64,000 nucleotides of DNA from Deltaproteobacteria bacterium (GTDB taxonomy: Bacteria > Myxococcota > Myxococcia > SLRQ01): contig JARGFU010000002.1 of assembly GCA_029210625.1 (NCBI GenBank), positions 124,001 through 188,000 of the forward strand. Direction: 5' to 3'. The notes under the pieces were generated by a model. It worked only from the letters and a program-made list of their open reading frames with translations. It was not told the DNA's origin and ran no database searches. The number at the start of each line of letters is the position of its first letter. The first letter of the stretch is position 1. Shown here in pieces: positions 6,391 to 30,668 of the stretch. The position numbers were made by a program, and so were the translations under genes.

Positions 6391-6888
6391 ATGCGAACCC
6401 CCCCTGCGGTCCTCGTCCTCGCGTCCTCTCTCTCCCTCCTCGCCGGCTGCGCCGCGCCGCAGATCGGGGTGATGCACTTCGCCGAAGGTCAGGTGCAGCA
6501 CGCCATCCACGCCGGGGACATCGCCTGGAAGCCCTGCCCTCCGGGCCTGCCCGAGGGCTGCGGCATGGCCGTCCTCGAGGGCGACCCCCGGGGCGAGGGC
6601 CTCTTCACCGCCCGCTTCCGTGGTGACGGCAGCAACACCGCCGTCGTCCCCGCCCACTGGCACCCCAAGGACGAGCGGGTGACCATCCTCGAGGGCAAGG
6701 CCTACGTCGCCTTCGGCGAGGGCGCCACCCGCGAGGACGCCACCGAGTTCGGCCCCGGCGACTACTACGTGAACAAGCGCCACGCCATCCACACCGTCTG
6801 GATCGACGGCGACTGCGTCCTGCAGATCACCGGCCTCGGCCCCTGGAAGGCCGTGCCCATCAGCCAGCAGGCGCCTCCGACTCCCTAG
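6391..6888 (+). CDS. Cupin-domain lipoprotein
   Basis: 165 residues. The chosen ATG opens a clean lipoprotein signal (MRTPPAVLVLASSLSLLAGC) with lipobox LAGC; upstream in-frame Mets would give a charged, non-signal N-terminus. The mature part carries a cupin_2-like barrel: AHWHPKDERVTILEGKAYVAFGE, then FGPGDYYVNKRHAIHTVW, including the two metal-site His of HWH and the later H of KRHAIH. Related proteins are metal-binding and of uncertain enzymatic role. It converges on the lipoprotein at 6,885-7,514, the stop codons overlapping. Confidence 0.82.
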   Translation: MRTPPAVLVLASSLSLLAGCAAPQIGVMHFAEGQVQHAIHAGDIAWKPCPPGLPEGCGMAVLEGDPRGEGLFTARFRGDGSNTAVVPAHWHPKDERVTILEGKAYVAFGEGATREDATEFGPGDYYVNKRHAIHTVWIDGDCVLQITGLGPWKAVPISQQAPPTP

Positions 6889-7514
6889 GGGGACTCGAAG
6901 CTCTCCACGTCCCGGGTCCACCGCTCGACCGGCCCGGGGGCGGGTGGACCGGGCTGGAGCAGGGGCTCGGCGCTCAAAGGCCGCACCGGCTCCTCCGGCT
7001 CGGGCTCGTCGAAGCAGTGGCCCGGCAGGGGCGCGGCCCCCTCGAGGCTCTCCTCGAGCGGCGCCAGGGCGACCCGGCCGAAGTCCATCCTGTCCCGGTC
7101 GGGAGGAGGCGCGCCAGGGGGCCAGTCGCGGGGATGGTGGGAGCAGACCACCGAGCGCAGCGCGTACGCCGGGTGGTGGAAGCGCAGGGTCTTCATCGGC
7201 GGGAAGTGCTCGGCGATGAGCACGTGCACCCACTGGCGCTCGTAGGTCGGCGGCGTGTCGAAGCGCCCCTCGGCGTCGCTGCGCAGCGCCCGGCCCCCGG
7301 ACCAGGCGGTCTCCTCCACCACGACCCCCTCGATCGGCTCCCCCGAGCGGGCGTCCAGCACGGAGCCATGCAGTCCCATCGAGGTCCGCACCTGCATGGG
7401 GCAGATGCAGCAGCCCGTCGCCGAGACCGCGAGGAGAAGGAGCAGCACCGCGCTGGTCAAGACCCGGATCACCCCCCGAGTCCGCCACGAGCGTGTCTTG
7501 CAGGCAAGCTGCAT
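6885..7514 (-). CDS. Lipoprotein with carboxypeptidase-regulatory-like domain
   Basis: About 209 residues from the ATG at 7,514 (a GTG about 45 bases downstream, just before the hydrophobic stretch, is an alternative start). The signal peptide is VLTSAVLLLLLAVSATGC with lipobox ATGC. The next segment (GLHGSVLDARSGEPIEGVVVEE, SDAEGRFDTP) is the typical beta-sandwich of carboxypeptidase-regulatory or CNA-B-like domains. A Pro/Glu-rich tail follows. It is probably an outer-membrane or periplasmic lipoprotein of unknown role. It is the last chromosomal gene before the mobile element. In the uninserted chromosome its promoter would have lain just downstream of tRNA-Arg. Confidence 0.72.
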   Translation of the reverse strand: MQLACKTRSWRTRGVIRVLTSAVLLLLLAVSATGCCICPMQVRTSMGLHGSVLDARSGEPIEGVVVEETAWSGGRALRSDAEGRFDTPPTYERQWVHVLIAEHFPPMKTLRFHHPAYALRSVVCSHHPRDWPPGAPPPDRDRMDFGRVALAPLEESLEGAAPLPGHCFDEPEPEEPVRPLSAEPLLQPGPPAPGPVERWTRDVESFESP

Positions 7515-7674
7515 GCGCGATTCAGAGGGGCCTGTCGCGCGCCCGGAGGGTTCGACTCCGCACGGCGCGAAGCGCCGCCTACCGGCAGAGGGCGGAGAAG
7601 CCGCCTTTCCATGCGGAGCGAGTCCCGATGCCGAGGGAGATGCCTGGGAACCCGTCGATCCTGGAAGTACATCT

Positions 7675-7721
7675 GCGCGCCCGGAGGGACTCGAACCCCC
7701 GACCCTCGGATCCGAAGTCCG
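7675..7721 (+). repeat. attL: 47-bp direct repeat, displaced tRNA-Arg 3' half
   Basis: Identical to 28,448-28,494. It begins gcgcgcccggaggg and ends ccgaagtccg. It covers the anticodon arm, variable loop, T arm and acceptor 3' strand of tRNA-Arg on the minus strand. This is the original chromosomal 3' half, cut off from its 5' half by integration. The flank beyond it (t at 7,674, c at 7,673) means this ancestral copy reads CAG, not CCA, after the discriminator. Confidence 0.95.
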
Positions 7722-7876
7722 GTTCCAGTGGTGCAACGTCTTGGAATTGCTGTCCTGAGTGTGCCGAACGATGCAGGAGATTGCACGGGAATGCAGGGGG
7801 TTCTGGTGAGCCCCCGGCACAGGCAACCGGCACAGACGGTACCGTGAGGCGGAAGAGCGGGGGAGGGCGCAAGTGA
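7722..7876 (+). other. Alternative integrase 3' end used only in the circular form
   Basis: This looks intergenic in the integrated state (7,515-7,872 contains no gene apart from attL). Joining attR to attL by excision places it directly after integrase codon 394. The frame stays open for 51 codons from 7,721 (GSSGATSWNCC, ending RRKSGGGRK) and stops at TGA 7,874-7,876, overlapping the GTG start of the next gene as GTGA. It also holds the left arm-type repeat. Nothing else is seen in 7,515-7,674. Confidence 0.7.
7815..7835 (+). promoter_or_regulatory. Left arm-type integrase-binding repeat (putative)
   Basis: Two copies of CGGCACAG with 13-bp periodicity (7,815-7,822 and 7,828-7,835), separated by GCAAC. 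The same arrangement, differing at two spacer bases, lies near the other end at 28,369-28,389. Matching repeats flanking the core on both arms are typical of tyrosine-integrase attP sites. Confidence 0.7.
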
Positions 7877-8160
7877 CGAGTGACACGCCAGCCCACACCT
7901 GCCACCGCTGCCAGGCTCCCCTCCCCCTCACCAAGGCGGGACGACCCCGCCAGGGCGCCAGGTTTTGCTGCACGGCCTGCCGCCAGACCCACCACACCAA
8001 GCGCCGTCGCCGAGCCCGTCAGCGCCTGCCAGAGGCCCTGGCCTCCCTCGACGCCAGCCTGCGGGAGGTCAGGGAGCTGCTGGCCGTCCTGGGGCAGCCT
8101 GGCGGTCTGGGGGAGGTGGAGGACGGGAAGACGTCCGGCGAGGGGCCTGTGGAGCGCTAG
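7873..8160 (+). CDS. Small Cys-rich zinc-finger-like protein
   Basis: 95 residues from GTG. A CHRC pair near residue 10 and a CCTAC segment near residue 32 could form one zinc-binding site. A basic stretch (HHTKRRRRARQR) and a predicted amphipathic helix (LASLDASLREVRELLAVL) follow. The start codon overlaps the stop of the extended integrase frame in the circular form, which argues that this is a real gene and part of an int operon before integration. Possible roles are a recombination directionality factor or a regulator. No family is recognised. Confidence 0.65.
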   Translation: MTSDTPAHTCHRCQAPLPLTKAGRPRQGARFCCTACRQTHHTKRRRRARQRLPEALASLDASLREVRELLAVLGQPGGLGEVEDGKTSGEGPVER

Positions 8161-8280: not shown

Positions 8281-9921
8281 CTAGGGCTCGCGCCCCCCCG
8301 CTGCCAGGTCACAGACCTCTCTGAGTATCTCGCGGGCTATTTCCGGAATCGCTTGCTCGTCGATCCTCTCTGCAAGGACAGCTGCCATTCGAGGCTTGCT
8401 GCCCTCTCCGACCTCCGCCTGGATCGACTCCATCAGTTCGCGCTGACCTGCTGACACCATCAACTCCTCAAACTCCGCTCCCCAGTACCTGAATCGGTCC
8501 AGGTACTGCTGCGGAGCGCCGCCTCCTTCTTGGTCGCGCTGACAGAGGTAGGGGATTTGGAGGCCCTCCAGAAACCTGATCCACGGAGCGTAGTTCGACT
8601 GCCCAGACACATCGATCACGCTCACACCTGCGGCATCCAGGTCCATGCCGATTCTAGGGGCGATACCGCAGAGGAAAGCTGTCTCTGTTGGGCCCTCTAC
8701 CAGAAGAGCCGCGCGCGCAAACGGAAGTTCTCGGTAGCGAGGATCGGCGAAGCGACGCTCGAACATGACTTGCTCCCCAGGCGTCTCCGGCACTAGGGCT
8801 CGGCAAATGCTGGACCCCTCGACGCTTGGAGCGATTCGATACAGGAAGCGCAAACTGGATTCCTCTATCAACCCAGGATCGTGCGTTATTAGAAGCACTT
8901 GGTTCCGCTCCGCTGCATCCCTGATGGTGCGACGCAAGCGACGCTGTGCCTGCGGATGCAGGTGCAAACCAGGCTCCTCAAGCACCAGCACTTTCCCTTC
9001 ATGGTGTGCCAGGTTGGCCAGAATCGTCAGCACCTCGACCACGCCCATGCCGATTCTCTGGTGAGGAATCGGCGTTTCGCTGCCAGCCCGATAGAACATC
9101 AGCTGGGCAGGGGTCCCCTGTGACCCCATGGTTTCAAACTGCAGATCGGGAAAGAAGTGCGAGAACTCTTTCTCCACCGCTTCTAGGCGCTGTCGCCCTG
9201 GGCGCAAACCATTTGCAAGGTTGTACAGAAGGGTGGCCAGGGCGCCCCCGTCGAGGGCATCCCGTACACCTTTCCCATCGTCAACAGCCACCGTTTCGGG
9301 GCGTTTTCGGATCTCCCCCAGCACCACAAACGCGTTCATGAGAACACCGTTCAGCCACTGTCGAGGATCTTGACCCAGAGCGAAGGCCCCACTGGAGGCC
9401 CTCAGGTCCTCAGCAGAATCCGTCCGACGAAAGGCCTTCGCGAGGTGTACGGTATCTGCAACCGCTTCTCCCCCGTTGAACCGGATGGCCGTTCGACCCA
9501 AGTATACGTGGTACCCGTCACTATGGCGTATCCTGATCTCCGACTCATTGGTCTTGGGCGGGAAGACGGCTTCACCACAGAACATCCCCGAGAACTTTGA
9601 GCTAATCTCCTCGGCCAACGGCCGGCCAGACTTGCGCTCCACCGCCGCAACCTGCCTCCACATCTCCATGCGGATCGTGCTGTCATCCTCTTCGTCGAAC
9701 TCGATCTCCACCAGAACCTCTGCTTCTCGGTCTGGACGGAATCGCTCCGCCTGTGGAGGCAGGTATTGGCTGGTCCTCGTAGCCGCCTGCAGAGCCGCGA
9801 TGATAGATGATTTTCCAGCGTTGTTTTCGCCGAGGATCTGCGTCAAACCCGCAGAAAGCTCGATCTCCTGCCTCTCCCGGTAGCACCGGTAGTTGTCAAA
9901 AATGATCTTGCGGACCCTCAT
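8281..9921 (-). CDS. OLD-family ATPase/TOPRIM nuclease
   Basis: 546 residues. The N-terminal ABC-type ATPase has Walker A GENNAGKSS (about residues 32-40) and Walker B VLVLEEPGLHLHP (about 313-325), followed by LLITHD. The C-terminal TOPRIM-like domain begins AALLVEGPTETAFL and continues VIDVSG...IPYLCQRDQEG. The family DxD metal motif appears as QRDQ, so only one of the two aspartates is obvious and catalytic competence is uncertain. OLD proteins act in phage exclusion, alone or with a UvrD-like partner (Gabija). It lies 78 bases downstream of hsdS on the same strand and is probably the last gene of the restriction operon. Confidence 0.85.
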   Translation of the reverse strand: MRVRKIIFDNYRCYRERQEIELSAGLTQILGENNAGKSSIIAALQAATRTSQYLPPQAERFRPDREAEVLVEIEFDEEDDSTIRMEMWRQVAAVERKSGRPLAEEISSKFSGMFCGEAVFPPKTNESEIRIRHSDGYHVYLGRTAIRFNGGEAVADTVHLAKAFRRTDSAEDLRASSGAFALGQDPRQWLNGVLMNAFVVLGEIRKRPETVAVDDGKGVRDALDGGALATLLYNLANGLRPGRQRLEAVEKEFSHFFPDLQFETMGSQGTPAQLMFYRAGSETPIPHQRIGMGVVEVLTILANLAHHEGKVLVLEEPGLHLHPQAQRRLRRTIRDAAERNQVLLITHDPGLIEESSLRFLYRIAPSVEGSSICRALVPETPGEQVMFERRFADPRYRELPFARAALLVEGPTETAFLCGIAPRIGMDLDAAGVSVIDVSGQSNYAPWIRFLEGLQIPYLCQRDQEGGGAPQQYLDRFRYWGAEFEELMVSAGQRELMESIQAEVGEGSKPRMAAVLAERIDEQAIPEIAREILREVCDLAAGGREP

Positions 9922-9999
9922 TCGTCTCCTCCACGACCAGCCCTAGGTCCCAACGAAATCCTTCAAGGGCGGCAATTCGGCTGCGGCCAACTGGGTGAG

Positions 10000-12099
10000 C
10001 TACTGCCTCCCATTTCGCACTCTCCGTGCATCAAACCTTTCGACCTCGCCACGACGAATGGCGGAGTTGAGTGCACTCTTGAGAGCCTTCTGCGACGGTT
10101 GCGAAAGCCGAGCGAAGCCGAGGTGCTCGACCACCAGGCGGAAGACCTCTTCGCGCTCGTAGAGGCGCCCCTTGGACATCGCCGAGCCGATGGCTTTCCG
10201 CAGCACCTCTGGCTCCATGTCCGACAGCCGGGCCGCCGACAGGAAGTAGACGCCGTCTTCGCTCTCCAGGATTCCTCGACGGACGGCGGCACGAACGTGG
10301 CCGGATAGGGCCTTCTTGATGTTCTTGCCCAGGCGCAGGTAGCCGAGCGCATTGGCCAGGTCCCGCAGCAGATCGTCCCGCTCATGCCCTGCGCGGGTCG
10401 CGATCTTTCGGATGAGCGCCATCGCTGCGGCCTGGGTCAGCTCCTCAGGCGCCTGCTCAGGCGCCTTCGATGTCTTGGGCTTCCGCCTCGCAGTAGCCTT
10501 GCCCTTCTTCGGCTGGTCGGCGAAAGGCTCGGCTCGTGGCTCGGCCTTCGAGTTGCGCTTGCGCCGAGCATTCTTCTTCGGCGCCTGCGCCTCTCGCTCG
10601 GCCCTGATTCGTTCCAGCAGCACGCTGGCGGGCTCGTCGTTCGGGTCCTGGGGGACGAGTTCACCACGGAAGGCCTTAGCGAGAGTCGCCTGCTGGAGGT
10701 TTTCCAAGTCCCTATTGAGAGAGGCAGATCGCTCTTCTGCTATCTCAATGAACTCAAGCATGTCGTTGAGTTTCGTGACGAGCACTCGCTGTTCGGCGAT
10801 TGGAGCCAAAGGCATCGCGAGACGCTTGATCTTTCCCTGGAAGAGGTTGCTCTGCGCCGTCTGAGTCTTCGCTCGGTCCATCTGCGATTGGAGCACCGGT
10901 GCCCGAAAAGCCAGCGACTCGAAGTGGTCATCAACGAGAACCGGTCGAACTACAGCAACGCTCCGAACGAGCGAGAACCGTAGACCTTCGTCGACGGTGC
11001 AGGATCTACCCACAGTGCCCGAACAGGAAAGAAGAACGTCGCCTTTCTGAACCCTTAGACGCTTCGAAAGGAGGCGATGAGTCTCCTGCGAGATGTAATC
11101 TACTTTCGCGAGGCTCAAGTGCCCGTTTCGGACATTCCTGGCGGAGAGCAGAAACACGCCGCTTCCGGTTCGCTTCGGGGTGGCGTGTTCACCGTCAGTC
11201 ACGAAATCGCTGGTCTCCTCAACGCTTGCCCAGCACCACCCGTCCGGCAGCTCAGGCAGCCCCTCTCTATCGACGGGCTCCGGCTCCCGGTACTTCTTGG
11301 CTGCCTTGGCTCGTTCCTTCTCCAGCACGGCCGAATCGTCATCATCGGACCAGGGCTTCCGGGCGCTCCTTGCCTTGGCTTCGGCCTTGGCGCGGGCCTT
11401 CTCGGCGGCGTCTTCGATCCAGCGGGTGCGGCGCTCGGTGCGGATGCGCTTGAGCAGCTCGGAGGCAGGCTCGACGTCGGGGTTCTGGGCGCGCCAGGCC
11501 TTCGTCAGGTCGCCGCGAAAGGCTGCGGCCAGGACCGACTGGCGGAATTTCTCCAGCAGCGGCGGGATGGCGTCGAGTGCCTCTTTGGCGGCCTCGGAGC
11601 GAATCTGTAGGGACTCGATCTTGGCGACGATGCGCTTCTGCTCGTTGAGGGGGGCGACTGGCACCAACTTCGTTGCGAGCGCCTTCTGATTAATCTTCGG
11701 CAGGACTGTACGGCCCTGGCTCCTTGAGACCTGGGCGGTGAACATTGACGAAATCAACCACTGATGGAGAAACACCGCTTCGATGTAGCCCCTAACCGGG
11801 TACATGTCGGCGCTGCACAGACCCTCGAAGTTCGCCAGGACCGCCTTGGCCAGATAGGGCCGGATCTTCGAGTAGAGGATCTGCCCGGCGTGAAACCTGT
11901 GCTTCGGGCTGGTTACGCCATCCTCAGCAACCGTTCGGTAGGGCAAAAGCCTGCCAGTGCCCGACTCGATGTGGTTCGGCGCAATATGCGGCTTCTCCGG
12001 ATGGCCGGAAGGATCAACCAGATCGGACTCCACCGCCGCCACATCCGCGAATGCTGCCCAGTTCCACGACCCAGGTAGAGAGTGGTGCTCATCGCTCAT
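10000..12099 (-). CDS. hsdS: Type I restriction specificity subunit HsdS with extra C-terminal domain
   Basis: 699 residues, against about 400-600 for usual HsdS. Two half-subunits are visible: TRD1 (about 1-145) with conserved helix PLNEQKRIVAKIESL, and TRD2 (about 300-440) with PIAEQRVLVTKLNDM. Each half ends in a matching segment (AAFRGDLTKAWRAQNPDVEPAS and AFRGELVPQDPNDEPAS). It selects the DNA target for HsdM and HsdR. Residues about 515-565 form a Lys/Arg/Ala/Pro linker. The last about 135 residues hold a domain with three helix-plus-wing-like segments (VRAAVRRGILES, IGSAMSKGRLYE, LNSAIRRGEVER) that is not part of standard HsdS. The ATG overlaps the hsdM stop (ATGA). Confidence 0.93.
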   Translation of the reverse strand: MSDEHHSLPGSWNWAAFADVAAVESDLVDPSGHPEKPHIAPNHIESGTGRLLPYRTVAEDGVTSPKHRFHAGQILYSKIRPYLAKAVLANFEGLCSADMYPVRGYIEAVFLHQWLISSMFTAQVSRSQGRTVLPKINQKALATKLVPVAPLNEQKRIVAKIESLQIRSEAAKEALDAIPPLLEKFRQSVLAAAFRGDLTKAWRAQNPDVEPASELLKRIRTERRTRWIEDAAEKARAKAEAKARSARKPWSDDDDSAVLEKERAKAAKKYREPEPVDREGLPELPDGWCWASVEETSDFVTDGEHATPKRTGSGVFLLSARNVRNGHLSLAKVDYISQETHRLLSKRLRVQKGDVLLSCSGTVGRSCTVDEGLRFSLVRSVAVVRPVLVDDHFESLAFRAPVLQSQMDRAKTQTAQSNLFQGKIKRLAMPLAPIAEQRVLVTKLNDMLEFIEIAEERSASLNRDLENLQQATLAKAFRGELVPQDPNDEPASVLLERIRAEREAQAPKKNARRKRNSKAEPRAEPFADQPKKGKATARRKPKTSKAPEQAPEELTQAAAMALIRKIATRAGHERDDLLRDLANALGYLRLGKNIKKALSGHVRAAVRRGILESEDGVYFLSAARLSDMEPEVLRKAIGSAMSKGRLYEREEVFRLVVEHLGFARLSQPSQKALKSALNSAIRRGEVERFDARRVRNGRQ

Positions 12100-13550
12100 T
12101 CAGCGACCTCAGCCGTGACTCCATTCCCATTCGGATCGAGCATCTCCATGAGCGCCTGCATCTCCTCGGTCGCGGTCTGCAGGTGCACGAGGATCTCGGC
12201 GGCGACCTCGTCGGGCTCGGGCAGGTCCTCGGCCCGATCTACCGACTCGTCCCGCAGCCAGGTGATATCGAGATTGTCGCCGCGCTTGGCGATGAACTCC
12301 CGGTCGAACTTCCGGAAGCGCCCTTCCTCGCCCTCGTCTTTGCGCTTCGAGCCGCCATTCGGGTCCTTGCCGTAGGCATCGACGAAGGGCTGCAGGTGCT
12401 CCCTCGTGAAGGGCGTGCGCTTGCCGAAGGAGGGCATGTTCGCGCGCAGGTCGTAGATCCACACCGCCTTGGTGTTGCCGGTGTCCTTCTTCTCGCCCCG
12501 CTGAAGGAAGAGCACGTTGGTCTTCACACCCTGGGCGTAGAAGATGCCGGTCGGTAGCCGCAGGATCGTGTGCAGGTTGCACTTGTCCATCAGGTCCGAG
12601 CGGATCTGCTGGCCGGTCTTGTCCTCGAAGAGCACGTTGTCCGGAAGCACCACGGCGGCCCGGCCGCCCGGCTTCAGGTTCCGATAGATGTGCTGCAGGA
12701 ATGCCAGCTGTTTGTTGCTGGTCGGGAAGGTGAAGTCGTCCCGGGTGGGCTTGCCGCCGCCCTTCTTGGTGCCAAAGGGAGGGTTCGTCAGGATGACGTC
12801 CGACCTCGGTACGCCGGAGCCGAGGGGAGAGAGCGAGTCCCCGAGCAGGATGTCGCAGTCGATGTCGTGCAGCAGCGCGTTCATCAGCGCGAGACGCTGC
12901 GTGTCGGGGACTAGCTCGATGGCGTAGTAAGCCTCCTTGCGCTGGAAGACCTGCTCGGCCTCCGAGAGGTCGAAGAGATCGTCCGTGGCCGCCTTGACGT
13001 GCCGGTCGGCGGCGATGATGAAGCCCAGGGTTCCGGCCGCCGGGTCCGAGACTCTCTCGCTCGCCTGGGGCTTGATGATGTCCACCATCGCCTCGATGAG
13101 CGGCCGGGGCGTGAAGTACTGGCCCGCCCCGGACTTCTTCTCGTTCGCGTTTTTTTCCAGCAGACCCTCGTAGAGGTCGCCGAGGCCCTCCTGGCGGGCG
13201 CTGTACCAGTCGAGAGAGTCGATGCTGCTGACGAGCTTGGCGAGGTTTCGCGGCTGGCGCAGGGAGGTGTTGGCGTTCGCGTAGATCGCCTGGATCTTGC
13301 CGCTCACCTCCGTGCCCAGGTGGATGAGCAGCTCACGGTAGAAGGTCAGCTGCTCGGTGCCGTCCTTCGAGATCAGGTCACTCCAACGCCAGCCCTTGGG
13401 CAGGCTCTTCTCGGTGCCCGTCTCCTGGGCCATCTTGAGGAAGAGCAGGTAGGTCAGTTCGGTGACGTACTCGTGGTAGGTGATGCCGTCGTCGCGCAGC
13501 ACATGGCAGAGATTCCAGAGCTTCGCGACGATGTCGTGCGTGTTGGTCAT
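12096..13550 (-). CDS. hsdM: Type I DNA methyltransferase subunit HsdM
   Basis: 484 residues, starting MTNTHDIVAKLWNLCHVL. The ATG at 13,550 overlaps the hsdR stop (ATGA), so it is preferred to an ATG five codons upstream. The N-terminal helical bundle is followed by an N6-adenine methyltransferase domain: AdoMet-binding DPAAGTLGFII and catalytic ILTNPPFG (the NPPF motif). It protects host DNA and is required for target recognition by the complex. The C-terminus is acidic. Operon order is hsdR-hsdM-hsdS, all with 4-base overlaps. Confidence 0.96.
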   Translation of the reverse strand: MTNTHDIVAKLWNLCHVLRDDGITYHEYVTELTYLLFLKMAQETGTEKSLPKGWRWSDLISKDGTEQLTFYRELLIHLGTEVSGKIQAIYANANTSLRQPRNLAKLVSSIDSLDWYSARQEGLGDLYEGLLEKNANEKKSGAGQYFTPRPLIEAMVDIIKPQASERVSDPAAGTLGFIIAADRHVKAATDDLFDLSEAEQVFQRKEAYYAIELVPDTQRLALMNALLHDIDCDILLGDSLSPLGSGVPRSDVILTNPPFGTKKGGGKPTRDDFTFPTSNKQLAFLQHIYRNLKPGGRAAVVLPDNVLFEDKTGQQIRSDLMDKCNLHTILRLPTGIFYAQGVKTNVLFLQRGEKKDTGNTKAVWIYDLRANMPSFGKRTPFTREHLQPFVDAYGKDPNGGSKRKDEGEEGRFRKFDREFIAKRGDNLDITWLRDESVDRAEDLPEPDEVAAEILVHLQTATEEMQALMEMLDPNGNGVTAEVAE

Positions 13551-16500
13551 GCTGCGTCTTTCCAAACTTCTTCCTGGAGGTCGCCGAGCAGCTGCTCGAG
13601 TTTTCCTCCGAACACCTTGTTCATGCGGGCGAAGCCGCCCTGGGCCTTGAACTGGCCCCGGTCGAGGGCCTCACGGTCCACGATGGTCTCGACCTTCAGT
13701 TGCTTGCCGATGCGTTCCAGCCACTTCTTCTGTGGCGGCGTCCACTGCTGCATCGCCATGATCTTCTGCAGGGCCCGGTCCACCCGCTGCTCGTAGGGCA
13801 CCAGAGGTGAGCCAATGGCCTGCTGCCGGATGAAGCCGATGATCGAAGCCGCGATGTCTTGGTTCTTCACCTGTGAGTACGCTGTCCGCAGCTTCGTCTC
13901 GCTGTAGCCAGCCTCGTCGAGCTTGAGCTTCAGCTCGCGCAGCTGCTGCCGGGTGAGGTCGCGAGGCCGCTGGGTGACGACCTTCAGCGCCTCGATGGCG
14001 TTCGCGTTCTCCTCGATGTAGGCCCGGAAGCCATCGAGGTAGTCCTCCGGCTTCGCGTTGCCTTCGCCGTAGCCTCGCCCCGTCTCGATCAGCTCGTCAT
14101 CGTGGTCGGAGTAGAGGACGTTCCGTCCGCTGCTGGTCTTGAACTTGTCGAGGAAGGCCGCGACACCTTGGTGCTCCTCGAAAAAGGCCACGACCTCGGC
14201 CACATCGCCGGTCTGGAGCAGCTTGCTCACCTCCGCCGGATCGGCGCCCGCCAGCGTCTCGAAGGACTCCAGGTGCTTGCCCTTGATGCGGCCCTTCTTG
14301 GCCTGGAGCTTGGCGGTGATCTCGTCGATCACGCCCTTCTTGTGCCCCTCGTCCTCGACCGTCACCAGCTCCTCGACCAGCTGCTCGAAGGTGATGTGCG
14401 GACGGGTCACCACCGGCTTCATCGAGGTGTAGGGCTCCAGCGCCGAATACAGGTCCACGGCGTCGTAGATGCGGAAGACCTCCTTGCCGATGTCGGGGCA
14501 CAGCCGGGTCGCTCGCCCCATCATCTGCTCGTAGAGAATGCGGCTCTTCACCCGCCGGATGAACACGAGGTTCGTGATCTCGGGGACGTCGATGCCGGTG
14601 GTCAGGAGGTCCACGGTCACGGCGACCTTGGGCAGCCGCTCGTTCTTGTAGCGGCGGATCTTGTCCAGGGGCTTGTCCGCCGCCCCGGTGATCTTCTGTA
14701 CCGCGTCGTCCTCGACCTCGCCGTAGGCCTCGGTGAAGGCCTCCTTGAGCAGGTCCACCACCATGTCCGCGTGGGCGTCTGTAGCGCAGAAGATCATGGT
14801 CTTTCCGTCGAGCGACGGGTCGATCTGCTCGGCCAGGACCTCGCAGACGACCCGGTTGAAGCTCTCGGTGACGACCTTCGTGTTGAAGCCCTCGACCTCG
14901 ATGTCGATCTCATCGGGGGTGTTGAACATCTGCAGCTGGCCCGAGGCCGTGTTGTAGACGCCGACCTCCTCACCGGTCTTCCAGTGGATGCCCTCCTGGC
15001 CGAGCTTCGTGACGATGCGGATGGGCGGCTCGTGGTCCACGAGGTAGCCATCGATCACCGCCTGCCGGTAGCCGTACTCGAAGATGGGCTTGCCGAAGAT
15101 CTCGGTCGTGTGCAGGGCTGGCGTGGCGGTGAGCCCGATGCGGATCGAGTCGAAGTGGTCGAGCACCCTGCGGTACTTGCTGATGTACTCGGCCTCCGAG
15201 CGGAACTCGATCTCCGAGTCCGACATCTCCCGGTCGAGGTTGTAGCCCCGGTGGCACTCGTCCACGACGATGCAGTCGTACCAGTCCACCGGCACTGCCT
15301 CAGCGTCGTCCGAGGCGTACATCAGCCGCTTCACCATGCCCTGCACGGTGGCGACGTGGAGACGGGTGTCGGGCTCGGGCTTCAGGTCACCCAGCCCCTT
15401 CACGTCGTAGATCTCGGTGAGGCTCTGGAGGTTCTCCAGGCGCACGTCCTTGAAGGCATTCTCGGCCTGCTCCCCGAGGGCCGAACGATCCACGAGGAAG
15501 AGCACGCGGCGGAAGCGCCCGGCCTTCAGCAGCCGGTAGATGAGGCAGAGCGCCGTCCGGGTCTTGCCCGTGCCGGTTGCCATCGCGACCAGCATGTCCT
15601 GCTGGCCCTTCGCGATGGCCTGCTCGACGCTCGCCAGGGCGTCGTGCTGGTAGTCGCGGAGCGGCAGGTAGTCGGAGGGCTCGGTCTTCAGCTTGTCGTC
15701 GGCCTTCCCGTGGTCCTGGCCGAGCAGGTCGATGAGACCCTGCGGCGTGTACCAGCCTTCGAGTGGGCGAGGATGGTTCGTGGAGCGCCGGGCATCGAGG
15801 TACCAGATCCCGCTCTTCGTCTTGAGTTGCCGGAGGAAAGGCCGTCCGTTCGTGGCGAAGAGGAAGGGGATGACGTAGTCGCCCCAGGGCGAGCCCTCGG
15901 GCACATGCTCCTCGGTGGCCTTGTAGTCGCGGCTGTAGCGCTTCGCCTGCTCGATGGCGCCCGCCACGTCCTTGCGCTTGCGCTTGGCCTCGACCACAGC
16001 CACGGGGGTCAGGCCCACGAAAAGCACGTAGTCGGCGGGACCGGAGGCCGTCGGCCACTCGGCAATCGCCATGTTGCGACCCTTCGCCGGGCGGGCGCCT
16101 GCCTTGTAGGCAAGTGCGACGGTGTCGGCCTCCCAGCCTGCCTCTCGCAGCTGCTCGTCGATGAGCAGCCGGGTCTCGGACTCATCGAGATCGAGGTCGT
16201 CAGCGGCCTCCTGGGCCTGCTGGATGGCCGCCTGCACCGTCGCCCTGGGGGCAGCGGCGGTCTCGGCCTGGAGGGCCTCCATCTGCTGCGCGTGCTCGGC
16301 GTGCATCGCCGTGGCCCGCCCCTCGGCCTCGCCCGCAAGCTCAAGGGCGGCGGCGGCCTCTTCATAGGCAAACCGGGCGCGCTCCTCGGCCTCGACTCGC
16401 AGCTTCGCCTCCTGCGCAGCCGTCGCCTTCAACTTCGCGAGCTTCGCCTGCTGCTCGACCTCGCGCTGGCGCATCTCGGCAAGCTCGGCCTTCAGTGCGT

Positions 16501-16969
16501 TTCCGGCCTGGACCGGGTCGGGCGGCGGCACGAAGGGCCCCGACTTGAAGGCCTTGCTCTTGAACGCCCGCTGGAACCACACGCCGAGGCGCCAGGCCAG
16601 GCGTAGCTGGTGCAGAGCCTCCCGCTGTGTGCCCTCGACGTCGTGCACGGCCCGATTCCCGGCCTTTCGCAGCGAGTGGAAGAGGTCGCCGACCTCATGG
16701 TCTGTCACGCCGGAGTCTCGCAGCCGTCGCAGGAGGTCGATCTGCGCCTCCTCCGACGACGTGTAGATGCCTGTGCGTGCTGCGGCCTCACGAGCGAGCA
16801 CCTCGCCGAGTTGCCGAAGCTTGATCAGGGCGACGCCAGGGTCCTCGAAGACGTAGCGCTCAGCACGGGCTCCTAGCTCGGCGAGCAGCGGATCGACGGC
16901 CGCAAGATGGCCGAAGTTCGGCGACGCCTTCGCTCCGGTCCCCGGTGCTTTGCCGCCCTGCCCCGCCAT
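13547..16969 (-). CDS. hsdR: Type I restriction endonuclease subunit HsdR (EcoEI-like)
   Basis: 1,140 residues. The first about 110 residues resemble a DUF4145-type helical domain. A coiled coil rich in Ala, Glu and Gln follows to about residue 260. The nuclease domain shows ADYVLFVGLTPVAVVEAKRK, the D...EAK active site. The SF2 motor has motif I MATGTGKTRTA, motif II VVDECHRGY, motif III GLTATPA and motif VI MMGRATRLCPD. The end matches the EcoEI-type R-subunit C-terminal domain. It translocates and cuts unmodified DNA with HsdM2-HsdS. It is the first gene of the leftward defence operon, divergent from the HTH gene at 17,180. Confidence 0.96.
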   Translation of the reverse strand: MAGQGGKAPGTGAKASPNFGHLAAVDPLLAELGARAERYVFEDPGVALIKLRQLGEVLAREAAARTGIYTSSEEAQIDLLRRLRDSGVTDHEVGDLFHSLRKAGNRAVHDVEGTQREALHQLRLAWRLGVWFQRAFKSKAFKSGPFVPPPDPVQAGNALKAELAEMRQREVEQQAKLAKLKATAAQEAKLRVEAEERARFAYEEAAAALELAGEAEGRATAMHAEHAQQMEALQAETAAAPRATVQAAIQQAQEAADDLDLDESETRLLIDEQLREAGWEADTVALAYKAGARPAKGRNMAIAEWPTASGPADYVLFVGLTPVAVVEAKRKRKDVAGAIEQAKRYSRDYKATEEHVPEGSPWGDYVIPFLFATNGRPFLRQLKTKSGIWYLDARRSTNHPRPLEGWYTPQGLIDLLGQDHGKADDKLKTEPSDYLPLRDYQHDALASVEQAIAKGQQDMLVAMATGTGKTRTALCLIYRLLKAGRFRRVLFLVDRSALGEQAENAFKDVRLENLQSLTEIYDVKGLGDLKPEPDTRLHVATVQGMVKRLMYASDDAEAVPVDWYDCIVVDECHRGYNLDREMSDSEIEFRSEAEYISKYRRVLDHFDSIRIGLTATPALHTTEIFGKPIFEYGYRQAVIDGYLVDHEPPIRIVTKLGQEGIHWKTGEEVGVYNTASGQLQMFNTPDEIDIEVEGFNTKVVTESFNRVVCEVLAEQIDPSLDGKTMIFCATDAHADMVVDLLKEAFTEAYGEVEDDAVQKITGAADKPLDKIRRYKNERLPKVAVTVDLLTTGIDVPEITNLVFIRRVKSRILYEQMMGRATRLCPDIGKEVFRIYDAVDLYSALEPYTSMKPVVTRPHITFEQLVEELVTVEDEGHKKGVIDEITAKLQAKKGRIKGKHLESFETLAGADPAEVSKLLQTGDVAEVVAFFEEHQGVAAFLDKFKTSSGRNVLYSDHDDELIETGRGYGEGNAKPEDYLDGFRAYIEENANAIEALKVVTQRPRDLTRQQLRELKLKLDEAGYSETKLRTAYSQVKNQDIAASIIGFIRQQAIGSPLVPYEQRVDRALQKIMAMQQWTPPQKKWLERIGKQLKVETIVDREALDRGQFKAQGGFARMNKVFGGKLEQLLGDLQEEVWKDAA

Positions 16970-17950: not shown

Positions 17951-18014
17951 GATCGCTGGACCGATCCAGATCTGCAGCCGACCATGGAGGTACCTCTCGA
18001 TCGAAAGGAAACCC

Positions 18015-18191
18015 ATGCCCAAGACCCTCGAAGAGATCTACGCGGATCTGATGAACTACAGCCAGGAGCGTGTCGCCTCCTGCGAGACCACGCCCGGCGA
18101 CGCCTGCGAGGCCGCCCGCCTGGAGGCCGAACGCCTCGCCCAGGCGGCTGCCGTCCTGCACCCGATCCCCACGAACAACGAGGGCGAGTAG
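18015..18191 (+). CDS. Small acidic helical protein, unknown
   Basis: 58 residues. The ATG is preceded by a good ribosome-binding site (GAAAGGAAA at about 18,003-18,011). The sequence (MPKTLEEIYADLMNYSQERV...) predicts two helices and contains two Cys (SCETTPGDAC). No recognised family. It precedes the serine recombinase by 71 bases on the same strand and may be cotranscribed with it. Confidence 0.6.
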   Translation: MPKTLEEIYADLMNYSQERVASCETTPGDACEAARLEAERLAQAAAVLHPIPTNNEGE

Positions 18192-18262
18192 TTGCGCCCT
18201 CGGGGGGCCGGGGGCGCCAGGCTTCATCGCCAGCTGCAGCCCCCGGCCCCTTCTCCTCCGTC

Positions 18263-18901
18263 ATGCCTCGCCCGGTCCCCTTCAACGTCCCGCGTGACGA
18301 AGCGCAGCGCGTCTGCGCCGTGTACCTACGGGTGAGTACGGGCGAACAGAAGCTCTCACACCAGCTGCGCGAGCTTCGGCACGAGGCATTCCGCCGCCGC
18401 TGGCGCATCACTCACATCTACCGCGAGCGCCGAAGCGCAGCGAAGGCACGGCCCGCCTGGGAAGACCTCCGCGAGGATGCCAGGCGCCGCAAGTTTGGCG
18501 CGGTCCTTGTCTGGGCAATGGATCGCTGGGCCAGAGGCGGCGTCGCCGAGACCCTCACCAGCATCGAGGAGCTTGACCGTAGCAACGTCCGCTTCGCCTC
18601 GCTGCGAGAACCTTGGGCGGACACCGACTCGCCCGTGCGCGACCTCCTGCTCGCCGTCTTCGGGTGGGTGGCCCAGCAGGAGCGCCGGAGGATCTCGGAG
18701 CGCACCCGCGCCGGTCTCGATGCTGCCCGGCGCCGTGGCGTCCGCCTCGGCCGCCGACCCAAGGACGTAGACGCCGAGTTGATCGACCAGGTCGTCGCCG
18801 GGCACACCTCGGTGCGCAAGGCCGCCGCCGAGGCCGGGGTCTCGCGCGATGCCATCCGGCGCCGTGTCCGAGAGGTCCAGGCCGTCGCGCAGGCGCAATA
18901 G
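18263..18901 (+). CDS. Serine recombinase (resolvase/invertase family)
   Basis: 212 residues. The catalytic domain has the nucleophile Ser in VYLRVSTGEQ, then a conserved VWAMDRWARGG segment (normally LDRxxR) and RISERTRAGLDAARRRGVRLGRRP, which is the E-helix to HTH junction. The C-terminal HTH is TSVRKAAAEAGVSRDAIRRRVREV. The size fits small resolvases and invertases, not large phage integrases. In this element, which already has a tyrosine integrase, it could resolve multimers, flip a segment, or be a remnant of an inner mobile unit. No obvious inverted pair of sites was identified by eye. Confidence 0.9.
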   Translation: MPRPVPFNVPRDEAQRVCAVYLRVSTGEQKLSHQLRELRHEAFRRRWRITHIYRERRSAAKARPAWEDLREDARRRKFGAVLVWAMDRWARGGVAETLTSIEELDRSNVRFASLREPWADTDSPVRDLLLAVFGWVAQQERRRISERTRAGLDAARRRGVRLGRRPKDVDAELIDQVVAGHTSVRKAAAEAGVSRDAIRRRVREVQAVAQAQ

Positions 18902-19042: not shown

Positions 19043-19111
19043 CGGCCCGCGAGGGAGTCGAACCCTCTTCCTCAGCCTAGCTATGGCCGGGACCTGTCCA
19101 CCGGGCGGGCC
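19043..19111 (-). tRNA. tRNA-like gene inside the element (anticodon AGC by position)
   Basis: On the minus strand: a perfect 7-bp acceptor stem (GGCCCGC with GCGGGCC), a 5-bp anticodon stem (CGGCC with GGCTG, one G-U) around loop ATAGCTA, a 5-nt variable loop, and a canonical T arm (GAGGG, TTCGACT, CCCTC). The D arm is abnormal: about 13 bases with at most 2-3 pairs, and position 8 is not U. U33 placement gives anticodon AGC (Ala), unusual in bacteria. No CCA is encoded. Apart from this, 18,902-19,252 shows nothing. It may be a divergent element-borne tRNA or a decaying one. Confidence 0.5.
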
Positions 19112-19252
19112 GCCCCTCCCGACCGAGGCCGGTTGGGCCGTCCCTCCTCGTTCACAGCAGACCGCCTCCAACGACAGACTAGCCACAGGAAACCGCGAGT
19201 CAATACTTCCGCATTGCGCACACTCTGCAGTCGGCAACCTAGGTGGGCTCCC

Positions 19253-27129: not shown

Positions 27130-27510
27130 GTGGCGATCTTGAAGGCGCACCCCGATCTGCTGACCCGCAAGGAAGCGGCGGACTACCTGGCCGTGAGCAA
27201 CTCGAAGCTCGCCCACGGATGGGGTCCACCACCGCTTCCGGGGTACGCGCGGCCCAAGATGTACTCGAAGGCGCACTGTGACGCCTTCATCGAGAGGCAG
27301 AAGGAGGAGGCATGGGCAGCAATAGCATCCGCGTCCACGGCGTCTACCTCTACCAGCGTGAAGGCTCGCGGTACTGGTGGGCGCGGTGGTGGGTCGACGG
27401 CGTCGAGTACCGGCGGAGCACGAAGTGCATCGATCAGGAAGCGGCTGCGGTCGAAGGTCGCCGACTCCGAGTCGAGTCCGAGCGGCCCCACGCTCGTCGT
27501 CGTGGACTAG
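27130..27510 (+). CDS. Excisionase-like HTH protein overlapping int
   Basis: 126 residues from GTG. Residues about 8-58 (HPDLLTRKEAADYLAVSNSKLAHGWG...MYSKAHCDAFIERQKEE) are a helix_turn_helix_17/Xis-like domain. The rest (ASASTASTSTS, then Gly/Ser-rich) is low complexity and encoded in a different frame over the first about 200 bases of int, so it may be a by-product of the lack of a stop codon. In the third frame a TAG occurs shortly after the int ATG, so a small indel could have removed the normal end. The HTH part is probably real and would direct excision. Confidence 0.6.
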   Translation: MAILKAHPDLLTRKEAADYLAVSNSKLAHGWGPPPLPGYARPKMYSKAHCDAFIERQKEEAWAAIASASTASTSTSVKARGTGGRGGGSTASSTGGARSASIRKRLRSKVADSESSPSGPTLVVVD

Positions 27511-28511
27511 GCCCGAGCCTGGAGGACGCAGCGGTCCACGACATCGCTCGAAGCGAAGCTCGGCAACACCATCCTGGCTACTCCAAGACGCTTGAGAGTC
27601 GCTGGGCAAAGATCATCGGGAAGCTCGGGGCGGGGACCGAGCTTGCCAGCCTCGATGGCGCCAAGCTCGATCGGTACGAGGAGCAGCGCCTCGCCGAGGG
27701 CATTCGCGGCCAGACCATCCGGCTGGAGATCGGCTGCTTGAAACGGGTGTGGCGCGCGCTGCTTCCGGGGACGCCCGAGCCGCGATGGCCGGTCGTTCGA
27801 CGGTCGCCCAAGGATTCTCGGCTTCGTGGCCACCTCCGGCCGCTGGAGGACGTGAAGGCTGTCCTAGCCAACCTCGATCCCTACATTCGTGATCGCGTGC
27901 TGGTCGGGCTTCTGACTGGCTTGCGTGACGGCGAACTCGCGCGACTGCGCTACGACTGGGTCGAGCCCGCGCCCCCCGGGATCGGGGTACCAGCCATCCT
28001 CCGACTCCCTGACGACGCCACGAAAGATCGAGACGAGCGAATCGTGGGGCTGCCCGGGGCCGCTCTGGCCGCCATCAAGCGCCGCATGGAGGCCGACCCT
28101 GGACAGCCCGGGGTCTTTCCGGTTCGCAGCCACAAGCGGGCGCTGGCCACAGCATCGAAGAACGCTGGACTCACCTACAAGCTCACCTGGCGCGACCTGA
28201 GGCACACTCACGCGACACTCGCCCTGGTCGCAGGCGGCGACGTGACGGCCGTCAGGGATGCGCTGGGGCACGGTTCGCTGGAGGTCACGGACCACTACCT
28301 TTCCTCTACGCCAGCGCGGGTCGCTCAAGCAGCAGCGGCCGTCGAGCTACTCTTGAACGAGGCCGAATCGGCACAGCAAACCGGCACAGCTGACGAAGAG
28401 ACCGACGACGAAAAGACGAAACCCCCCGACATCGCGGAGGGTTTCTGGCGCGCCCGGAGGGACTCGAACCCCCGACCCTCGGATCCGAAGTCCGATGCTC
28501 TATCCAGCTGA
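27312..28511 (+). CDS. int: Tyrosine integrase of the element
   Basis: 399 residues in the integrated state. The ATG follows AAGGAGGAGG. The N-terminus (YLYQREGSRYWWARWWVDGVEYRRSTKC) is an arm-binding-type domain. The catalytic domain has Arg I in TGLRDGELARLRYDW, box II WRDLRHTHATLAL (usually HxLRH; Arg at the first position), LGHGSLEVTDHYLSS with the nucleophile Tyr. Residues about 353-399 are encoded over the arm repeat, the tRNA terminator, the tRNA 3' end and the att core; DSNPRPSDPKS is simply read-through of tRNA DNA. In the circle the frame should extend by 51 codons into 7,721-7,873. It integrates the element into tRNA-Arg. Confidence 0.92.
   Translation: MGSNSIRVHGVYLYQREGSRYWWARWWVDGVEYRRSTKCIDQEAAAVEGRRLRVESERPHARRRGLGPSLEDAAVHDIARSEARQHHPGYSKTLESRWAKIIGKLGAGTELASLDGAKLDRYEEQRLAEGIRGQTIRLEIGCLKRVWRALLPGTPEPRWPVVRRSPKDSRLRGHLRPLEDVKAVLANLDPYIRDRVLVGLLTGLRDGELARLRYDWVEPAPPGIGVPAILRLPDDATKDRDERIVGLPGAALAAIKRRMEADPGQPGVFPVRSHKRALATASKNAGLTYKLTWRDLRHTHATLALVAGGDVTAVRDALGHGSLEVTDHYLSSTPARVAQAAAAVELLLNEAESAQQTGTADEETDDEKTKPPDIAEGFWRARRDSNPRPSDPKSDALSS
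28369..28389 (+). promoter_or_regulatory. Right arm-type integrase-binding repeat (putative), inside int
   Basis: CGGCACAG at 28,369-28,376 and 28,382-28,389, spacer CAAAC, 59 bases from the core. Same orientation and 13-bp periodicity as the left copy. It lies within the non-catalytic integrase C-terminus. Confidence 0.7.
28411..28444 (-). terminator. Rho-independent terminator of tRNA-Arg, carried by the element
   Basis: Read on the minus strand directly after the tRNA CCA: AAACCCTCC, loop GCGATGTC, GGGGGGTTT, then CGTCTTTT. 9-bp stem with one G-U. It overlaps integrase codons on the other strand. Confidence 0.75.
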
Positions 28512-28522
28512 GCCACAGGCGC
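28446..28522 (-). tRNA. tRNA-Arg(UCG), integration target
   Basis: Cloverleaf: acceptor GCGCCTG with CGGGCGC (one G-U), D arm GCTC/GAGC-type, anticodon stem TCGGA/TCCGA with loop CTTCGGA giving anticodon TCG, T arm GGGGG-TTCGAGT-CCCTC. The discriminator G is at 28,449, followed by an encoded CCA (28,448-28,446). The 3' half from the anticodon arm on is supplied by the element; the displaced chromosomal copy at attL lacks the encoded CCA. It reads CGA (and probably other CGN) codons. Confidence 0.95.
28448..28494 (+). repeat. attR: 47-bp direct repeat within tRNA-Arg
   Basis: Identical to 7,675-7,721. The boundary at 28,494/28,495 is where element-derived sequence meets the original tRNA 5' half. 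Confidence 0.95.
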
Positions 28523-28568
28523 GTGGCCGGGGACTATCTGCGAGGGCCGGGGAGGGGTCAAGCGGGGG

Positions 28569-29153
28569 TCAGCGATCCCGGGGCAGCAGCCAGGCCAGAC
28601 GCCGGATCGAAATCCCGAGGGCTGCCCAGAGGAGCGGCCCCCACAGCGGAAACGTGAAGAGGCTCGCTCCCTCGTAGCGGTAGAGCCCCGCCCGCAGCAG
28701 CATCGACTCGAGGAGGGCGTCGAGGAGGAGCAGCGCGCCGGCCAGGCGTAGATCGCCGAGCACCAGCCGGTCGCCGGGCTCTCGCTGGAAGACGAGGCGG
28801 AAGCCGAGGTAGGCGAGCACGATCAGGGTGAGCCAGCCCTCGGCGGTCGGCAGCAGCGCGGGCAGGAGCACCAGGGCCGCGACCGAGGTGCCCTCGCTGA
28901 TCAGCAGGTTCAGCGCCGGGGTGGCCGGGCGGGGGGCGTCTCCCTCCAGCCAGGGCAGGGTGGCCAGCAGGGCGACCAGCGCGAAGAAGTAGACCGGCGC
29001 GATCCAGGCCGGGAAGCGCACGCCCTCCGGCAGGCTCCAGACGCCGGCCTGCAGGTGCACCCACTCGAGGGCGGCCCCGCCGGAGGCGGCGAGGGCGGCG
29101 CCGATCACGAGAGCGCCGAGACTGGGTCGAGGGGCGTGACGCACGACCTCCAA
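28569..29153 (-). CDS. Integral membrane protein, unknown
   Basis: 194 residues with about five or six hydrophobic helices (LGALVIGAALAASGGAAL, PVYFFALVALLATLPWL, SVAALVLLPALLP, LTLIVLAYLGFRLVF, LAGALLLLDALLESMLL, LWGPLLWAALGISI). A loop near the end (RAGLYRYEGASLFTFPLWGPLLW) is conserved-looking and resembles carotenoid-cyclase or INSIG-like bacterial membrane families, but I cannot assign it. First chromosomal gene right of the element, reading toward tRNA-Arg and divergent from the ATP-grasp operon at 29,211. Confidence 0.72.
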   Translation of the reverse strand: MEVVRHAPRPSLGALVIGAALAASGGAALEWVHLQAGVWSLPEGVRFPAWIAPVYFFALVALLATLPWLEGDAPRPATPALNLLISEGTSVAALVLLPALLPTAEGWLTLIVLAYLGFRLVFQREPGDRLVLGDLRLAGALLLLDALLESMLLRAGLYRYEGASLFTFPLWGPLLWAALGISIRRLAWLLPRDR

Positions 29154-29193
29154 CCTAGTCCATTTTGGGATTCCGCCCGAGGGGGCCGGGTCC

Positions 29194-29199
29194 TATGCT
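29194..29199 (+). promoter_or_regulatory. -10-like TATGCT before ATP-grasp operon
   Basis: TATGCT ends 11 bases before the ATG at 29,211, so transcription would start at or just before the coding region. No good -35 is seen. The same hexamer recurs upstream of other genes in this window. Confidence 0.35.
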
Positions 29200-29210
29200 T
29201 CCCGCCGAGT

Positions 29211-30668
29211 ATGCAACGCATGGAGATCGAGGTCTTCTCGCCGGGCGAGTTCGATTCGGAGCGGCACTACTACCCCCGCACGCTCAACGCCCAGATCCAC
29301 CCGCAGGTCGCGGCCTTCCTGAAGATGTCGGTGGAGCGGGTGATCAGCCGCTACACCCACCTCCACCCGCGGGTGGACCCCGAGGCGCTGCGCAGGGTCC
29401 TCACCACCGAGCCGCGCCACCTGCGCTGGTCGGGCAGCGACATCTTCAACGTCTCCACCGAGGAGGGCGTGAAGCAGAAGCTCGTCATCGAGACGAACTC
29501 CTGCCCCTCGGGGCAGAAGTCCTTCCCTCTCCTCGAGGAGCACCACGAGGAGGGCGGCTACTGGCGCCTGCTCGAGCACACCTTCCTGCCCCTGGTCTCG
29601 GGCACCCTGCGCAAGGCGGACCGGGAAGGTACGGATGGCATCGTCGCGGTGCTCTTCGACAAGAACCGGATGGAGGCCTCGGGCTACGCCCAGGTGCTCG
29701 CCACCCTGATCGAGCGGCCGGTCCACCTGGTCCCGGCGCTCCTCTCCGACGAGGACCCGCCCCTCGTGGTGCGGGACCGCGAGCTCTACGTCCGGATGGA
29801 CGGCGCCGAGCGCAAGGTGCTCTGCGCGTTCCGCTACGTCACCCAGCGGCCCTGGACCCGCCTGCCCCTCGACCTGAAGACGCCCCTGCTCAACCCGGTG
29901 GTCGCCTGCCTGGCCGGCGGCCGGAACAAGACCACCGCGGCCAAGGCCTACGAGATGTTCAACAGCGAGTACCGGGGCACGGGGCTCGAGATCCTCACCC
30001 CCGAGTCCTTCACCAACGTGCGCAAGCAGGCCGTGCCGCTGCGGGTGGAGCAGCTCGGCGGGCGGGCGGTGGTGAAGGTGCCCTACCTCAACGCCGGCCA
30101 GGGCATCTTCACGATCGTCAACAAGGAGGAGCTCGACGCCTTCATGGCGGAGAACCACCCCTACGACGAGTTCATCGTGCAGCAGCTGGTGGGCAACCAC
30201 CGCTGGTCCTCGGAGGGACGCCGGGGAAAGGTCTTCAACATCGGCACCGTCCCCGACAAGAAGTCCCGGATCTACGTCTTCGATCTGCGCCTGATGGTGG
30301 GCTGGCAGGGCGAGTCCTTCGCGCCGATCGCCCTCTACGCCCGCCGCGCCCCGCGCCCGATGGAGGAGGAGCTGCACGCGGGAGAGGACTCCTGGTCGGT
30401 GCTGGGCACCAACCTCTCCATCCGCCTCGGCGCGGATCAGTGGGACACCGAGCCCGGCCGCCTGCTGATGATGGACCGGCGAGACTTCGCCCGCCTCGGC
30501 CTGGGGCTCGACGACCTGATCGACGCCTACGTCCAGGCGGTCTGCGCCAACCAGGCCATCGACACCCTCGCCCGGCGGCTGACGAAGCGCGGCGGGGGGC
30601 TGCGCCGGGAGCTCTTCCGCTCCCTCAACAACGATCAGGCGCTCCTCGACGAGATCGCCGCGGGATGA
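29211..30668 (+). CDS. ATP-grasp-like protein, first gene of a three-gene cluster
   Basis: 485 residues from ATG 29,211 (MQRMEIEVFSPGEFDSE); an ATG at 29,220 is possible. The central-to-late region has ATP-grasp features: RAVVKVPYLNAGQGIFTIVNKEEL, where the Lys and the Gly-rich loop bind ATP, then YDEFIVQQLVGNHRW and RIYVFDLRLMVGW. The N-terminus (HPQVAAFLKMSVERVISRYTHLHP, IETNSCPSGQKSFPLLEE) is unfamiliar. It is followed by an AspA-like deacylase (ATGA overlap) and a RimK-like ligase, so it probably forms an amide or peptide bond on a small molecule or peptide. Substrate unknown. Confidence 0.8.
   Translation: MQRMEIEVFSPGEFDSERHYYPRTLNAQIHPQVAAFLKMSVERVISRYTHLHPRVDPEALRRVLTTEPRHLRWSGSDIFNVSTEEGVKQKLVIETNSCPSGQKSFPLLEEHHEEGGYWRLLEHTFLPLVSGTLRKADREGTDGIVAVLFDKNRMEASGYAQVLATLIERPVHLVPALLSDEDPPLVVRDRELYVRMDGAERKVLCAFRYVTQRPWTRLPLDLKTPLLNPVVACLAGGRNKTTAAKAYEMFNSEYRGTGLEILTPESFTNVRKQAVPLRVEQLGGRAVVKVPYLNAGQGIFTIVNKEELDAFMAENHPYDEFIVQQLVGNHRWSSEGRRGKVFNIGTVPDKKSRIYVFDLRLMVGWQGESFAPIALYARRAPRPMEEELHAGEDSWSVLGTNLSIRLGADQWDTEPGRLLMMDRRDFARLGLGLDDLIDAYVQAVCANQAIDTLARRLTKRGGGLRRELFRSLNNDQALLDEIAAG

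Follow-up and report, generated by a model that had tools for sequence, protein, structure and literature searches.

Myxococcus phage Mx8 is the closest described precedent for the locus analysed here. A passage of PMC4701971, citing Magrini et al. (1999), reports that on integration of Mx8 the 112 C-terminal residues of its Int are replaced by 13, with lowered activity. One passage of the Islander paper (PMC4383910) states that the integrases of both Mx8 and SSV extend across attP. A different arrangement is found in ICEKp1, where, according to a passage of PMC13023037, int is read from the tRNA promoter once the terminator has been displaced. More broadly, convergent pairs of int and tRNA genes form a large known class, with 438 of 1273 counted in the relevant passage of PMC2951348.

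The locus described here lies in a 64,000-nucleotide stretch of DNA, presumably from a myxobacterium, referred to as the window, whose numbering is used throughout. We conclude, with a probability of roughly 85%, that the stretch 28369–28494 holds the core and one of the arms of an Mx8-type attachment site, and that attP lies inside the tyrosine integrase gene of a 20.8-kb island. The integrated element occupies positions 7675–28494, as defined by an exact 47-bp repeat at each end and by its GC content, which is 0.645 compared to 0.723 in the remaining window. The core copy at the tRNA end (28448–28494) is identical at 47/47 positions to that at the far end (7675–7721), and the genome search found no other full-identity second copy. 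The core corresponds to positions 29–75 of a tRNA-Arg, and the far copy is the displaced native 3′ end of this tRNA. A regenerated tRNA gene and a displaced tRNA fragment thus flank the integrase gene, which is the hallmark of a tRNA-targeting island.

Close to each core copy is a pair of arm-type direct repeats on the plus strand, CGGCACAG-n5-CGGCACAG, located at 28369–28389 on the integrase side and at 7815–7835 at the far end. These are the two exact matches in the window, and 100 dinucleotide shuffles gave none. Judged by sequence, paired repeats flanking a core are what would be expected of arm-type integrase sites. A second match to the tRNA-Arg 3′ end, of 14 bp (GCGCGCCCGGAGGG), is found at 7537–7550, beyond the far end of the element and about 125 bp from the core there (E 0.12 by BLAST within the window); it could be either a chance match or the scar of an older insertion.

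At its junction with the tRNA, the element has restored a tRNA-Arg(TCG) (28446–28522, minus strand), which is identified by ARAGORN and by Rfam with 66.3 bits. It is a hybrid gene: its upstream part is host DNA, preceded on the host side by a sigma-70-like promoter (28533–28561, minus strand), and its downstream part is element DNA. The encoded CCA is at 28446–28448 on the minus strand, and its last two bases fall beyond the 47-bp repeat, in the element. Read along the tRNA strand, the CCA is followed immediately by an 11-bp intrinsic terminator hairpin (28445–28418), which lies entirely within int and is followed by a U-rich tail at 28408–28417, GTCTTTTCGT. The hairpin has a predicted folding energy of −19.1 kcal/mol (z −2.87), and a terminator scan found one site where 0.3 would be expected in 401 bp. 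The crossover must fall inside the 47-bp identity, and the last two bases of the CCA and the terminator are outside it, on the integrase side; they are therefore element DNA.

In the host genome, terminator hairpins behind tRNAs are common, and CCA is encoded in 22 of the 35 tRNA genes examined (44 matches found). The hairpin also resembles the terminator of the host tRNA-Glu. This resemblance is the sole point in favour of reading the terminator and CCA as host sequence, which would put the element on the opposite flank of the repeat. That reading is contradicted by the geometry of the repeats, since the two core copies enclose the integrase, the arm repeats and the region of lower GC, and we consider it extremely improbable.

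A preliminary description of this region had placed an arm-type repeat, the tRNA terminator, an encoded CCA, the tRNA 3′ half and the att core within the end of the integrase gene. All five are indeed inside the int frame, as ARAGORN and Rfam, the 47-bp repeat and the shuffles indicate. The 126 bp concerned are contained in int, but they make up 42 codons rather than the last 45, and the stop codon ends 17 nt beyond them. Similarly, the terminator is present as described, while its limits need to be moved from 28411–28444 to the hairpin and tail given above. The observation as a whole is thereby confirmed. Its interpretation, that the element repairs the tRNA with its own 3′ end and terminator, is also supported by the sequences at the two ends of the element: the terminator and the last two bases of the CCA are on the element side of the repeat, and the displaced end has neither an encoded CCA nor a recognisable terminator. 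Missing from that description were the location of attP inside int and the precedent of Mx8. The significant parts of the stack are the att repeat, the arm repeats and the hairpin beginning right after the CCA; an int frame that stays open into the tRNA is unsurprising on its own in GC-rich DNA.

The integrated form of the tyrosine integrase gene (27312–28511, plus strand; PF00589, E 1.5e-12) encodes 399 residues, and its 3′ end faces the tRNA-Arg gene in convergent orientation. Its TGA stop (28509–28511) sits within the tRNA 5′ half, so that host tRNA DNA supplies the stop and the last five codons, DALSS. A frame check places the att core within the coding frame. It also shows that the join 28494|7722, which would be formed in the excised circle, keeps the frame open for a further 51 codons (7722–7876, plus strand), ending in a TGA at 7874–7876. 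Because of this open join, attP lies inside int, and integration is predicted to alter the C-terminus of Int from the 445-residue circle form, with a 51-residue tail, to the 399-residue form ending in DALSS. In the circle form, the stop overlaps, as GTGA, the GTG start at 7873 of an ORF for a 95-residue Cys/His-rich protein (7873–8160, plus strand), which has only weak PHROG matches; the GTG is preceded by GGGGGAGGG. A further small ORF (27130–27510, plus strand; phrog_7338, of unknown function, E 9.7e-5) overlaps the start of int. It occupies the position of the Mx8 excisionase gene uoi and has an HTH-like sequence, which makes it a candidate for the same function.

Integrases usually have an HxxR motif, with His in first place. 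At the corresponding place in the segment encoded by 28150–28310 the sequence is WRDLRHT, which bears on whether the predicted integrase would be fully active. Scans of genome contigs and viral contigs revealed no close relatives of the integrase. When the tail peptide was searched against phages, the annotated entries among the matches listed were tRNA genes and not integrases, and the plasmid matches listed had no annotation at the matched position.

The resemblance to Mx8 is one of layout. In both elements attP lies inside a tyrosine integrase gene, the tRNA 3′ end with its CCA and terminator is on the strand opposite to int, the C-terminus of Int is shortened by integration (in the window, as predicted), and a small ORF overlaps the start of int. 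In the Mx8 record AF396866, the 3′ end of a tRNA-Asp with CCA and an opposite-strand terminator (z −5.60) are found inside int. The differences are that the window element targets tRNA-Arg rather than tRNA-Asp, that the tail swap is from 51 to 5 residues rather than from 112 to 13, and that no phage structural genes were recognised among the window ORFs examined. In addition, the circle-form stop overlaps the next start in the window, whereas in Mx8 it falls about 48 nt before p13. The two Int proteins are weakly similar, with a best local match of 57 residues (E 0.002 in a two-sequence set). By sequence, the window Int is thus not closely related to that of Mx8, and the island does not appear to belong to the Mx8 phage lineage by descent.

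The SSV-type integrases span attP (PMC4383910, in the passage concerned), as in the window. SSV-type elements are archaeal viruses, and their integration splits the integrase gene, unlike here. ICEKp1 and similar ICEs also integrate at a tRNA 3′ end, where they displace the native terminator and alter int expression; they differ in that the tRNA and int share one orientation, and the passage of PMC13023037 concerned describes no replacement terminator beside the tRNA.

Closer to Mx8 are two prophages of Mx8-like type, in genomes G024 (L146/L161) and G015 (L147/L162), presumably of Myxococcus. In both, a non-native terminator follows the tRNA-Asp at the int end, and the native terminator stands about 50 kb off, adjacent to the core copy at the opposite end. 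Their int genes overlap the tRNA-Asp by 70 and 41 nt respectively, and in both the int frame runs 126 codons beyond the far core, counted from the core. Five tRNA-Asp sites (L152–L156), called empty from their terminator and neighbouring tRNA-Val rather than from a full gene survey, all retain CCA and the native terminator. Comparison of the prophages with these five sites makes directly visible the replacement of a native terminator by one carried on attP. The prophages share with the window an int that reads into the tRNA and an element-side terminator directly behind it. They differ in their target, tRNA-Asp, in which the native CCA was already present.

The circle-form tails of Mx8 and the two prophages (L159/L161, L162, L145) are alike, and have in common a WxxCxxC motif near the end. 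Going by sequence, this could possibly be a small zinc-binding domain, which would be lost on integration. The window tail also contains WxxCxxC, which occurred in 32 of 20,000 shuffles. The window motif resembles that in the Mx8-like tails, but MAFFT did not align the two, and it is not taken here as a sign of homology.

The native end displaced by the window island differs from the empty tRNA-Asp sites, which have both CCA and a terminator. At 7675 it reads G73-C-A-G-A-T-G, continuing from G73 as CAGATGTAC, with no encoded CCA. No terminator-like site was found behind it in 7300–7900, and the displaced trailer folds more weakly than shuffled sequence (z +1.23). It is because this end lacks an encoded CCA and a recognisable terminator that both can be said to have been brought by the element. 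From the sequences, this looks like an addition, compared to the exchange seen in the Mx8-like cases. CCA is encoded by 11 of 22 further tRNA-Arg(TCG) genes examined in related genomes and missing from the other 11, and a terminator-like site is present within 60 nt of 6 of the 22. Seven have neither CCA nor a nearby terminator, and a native state without both is therefore ordinary.

It could be that the native tRNA once had both features and that the displaced end has since lost them by mutation, in which case the element would have exchanged rather than added them. The displaced end is no longer protected by selection, CCA is encoded in half of the other tRNA-Arg(TCG) genes, and the native sites of the Mx8-like cases have both features in five of five. 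However, the identity of the two core copies implies that little mutation has accrued there, seven of the 22 genes from relatives have neither feature, and the trailer folds worse than average. We therefore regard a past exchange as distinctly unlikely, and addition as the preferred reading.

Past the displaced tRNA end, at a distance of about 160 bp and with the same orientation, is a lipoprotein-like gene (6885–7515), which the island now separates from the tRNA-Arg gene. In the empty chromosome, transcription of the tRNA-Arg may have run on into this gene.

No uninserted relative of the tRNA-Arg locus was found in searches with the neighbouring gene in 145 genomes of the class and 195 of the phylum, or in stretches of a genome from the same family. 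The neighbouring gene (29055–30668) matched only itself in the class genomes. In the phylum set it had matches in four other genomes, none of which has a tRNA near the homologue. Two stretches of the same-family genome (G001, 85% complete) were inspected, and neither showed a tRNA-Arg(TCG).

A survey of 195 genomes took in every integrase locus with a match of E 1e-10 or lower, 53 loci with the window included. A convergent tRNA within 250 bp is found at 14 of these, and in 4 the tRNA is overlapped. The terminator is wholly inside int at three loci and partly inside at two. In one related family, integration recurs at tRNA-Gly(GCC) (L125–L139), with terminators behind the CCA that have the same fold but differ in sequence. 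Of these loci, L125, L134 and L139 resemble the window in that int reaches 22 or 105 nt into the tRNA and the terminator is directly behind the CCA, inside int. Covariation was analysed in nine of the 15 tRNA-Gly(GCC) loci, chosen for alignability; six (L127, L128, L136–L139) were excluded by eye as their hairpins do not align, and not all of the nine are inside a recognisable integrase. In the hairpins behind the CCA of these nine, both partners have changed in 6 of 10 pairs, compared to 2.7 pairs in shuffles, and 98.9% of cells are paired, against 78.8% in shuffles.

On the basis of these observations, we hypothesise that the integrase recombines the 47-bp core with the host tRNA, the crossover probably occurring in the anticodon loop. 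The terminator would then keep transcription of the tRNA from continuing antisense into int. Int may be less active in its shorter, integrated form, as it is reported to be in Mx8, and this would stabilise integration. The GTGA overlap could, in the circle, couple translation of int to that of the next gene. Taken together, it is possible, though we propose it only tentatively, that one crossover acts as a three-way switch, in which the tRNA-Arg gains CCA and a terminator, the Int tail goes from 51 to 5 residues, and the circle-only GTGA coupling is broken, so that the form of the protein and the layout of the operon would both tell the element whether it is inserted.

A simpler view is that this is an ordinary tRNA-targeting island, in which the att duplication repairs the tRNA, the int frame is open by chance, and the alternative tails have no function. 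Convergent pairs are common, both in the published count and in our survey, and stops are rare in GC-rich DNA. Moreover, the tails of the two Mx8-like prophages, with 22, 18 and 20 differences at the three codon positions over 86 codons, show no third-position excess, since the differences are spread evenly. Against this view, experiments described for Mx8 (in the passage of PMC4701971) link the same layout to a change in integrase activity, and the host of that phage presumably belongs to the same phylum; in addition, the GTGA overlap in the circle is preceded by a good Shine–Dalgarno sequence. An ordinary island with functionless tails is thus somewhat unlikely.

The cargo at 8281–16969 contains a full type I restriction–modification set (HsdS, HsdM and HsdR) and an OLD/GajA-like ATPase. 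The protein encoded at 19253–20767 matches the candidate defence model PDC-S60, in its N-terminal 165 residues only. A serine resolvase gene (17984–18901) is located beside a tRNA-Ala(AGC) called by ARAGORN at 19043–19115; this call lacks support from Rfam at the gathering threshold and has no second copy in the genome.

The arrangement itself is already known from Mx8, and the GTGA coupling and the addition of CCA and terminator are a possible twist on it. If our preferred reading of an Mx8-type attachment site is correct, a way of regulating the integrase that has so far been tied to a phage would be extended to an island that targets another tRNA. The recipient of this layout would be an island with restriction–modification and defence-like genes. 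It also raises the question of whether the level or processing of tRNA-Arg is changed by the CCA and terminator added on insertion. Finally, the keeping of a tRNA terminator inside integrase coding DNA is a repeated layout, found with at least three tRNA targets in related bacteria, and one family with this layout, at tRNA-Gly(GCC), shows a signal of paired changes.
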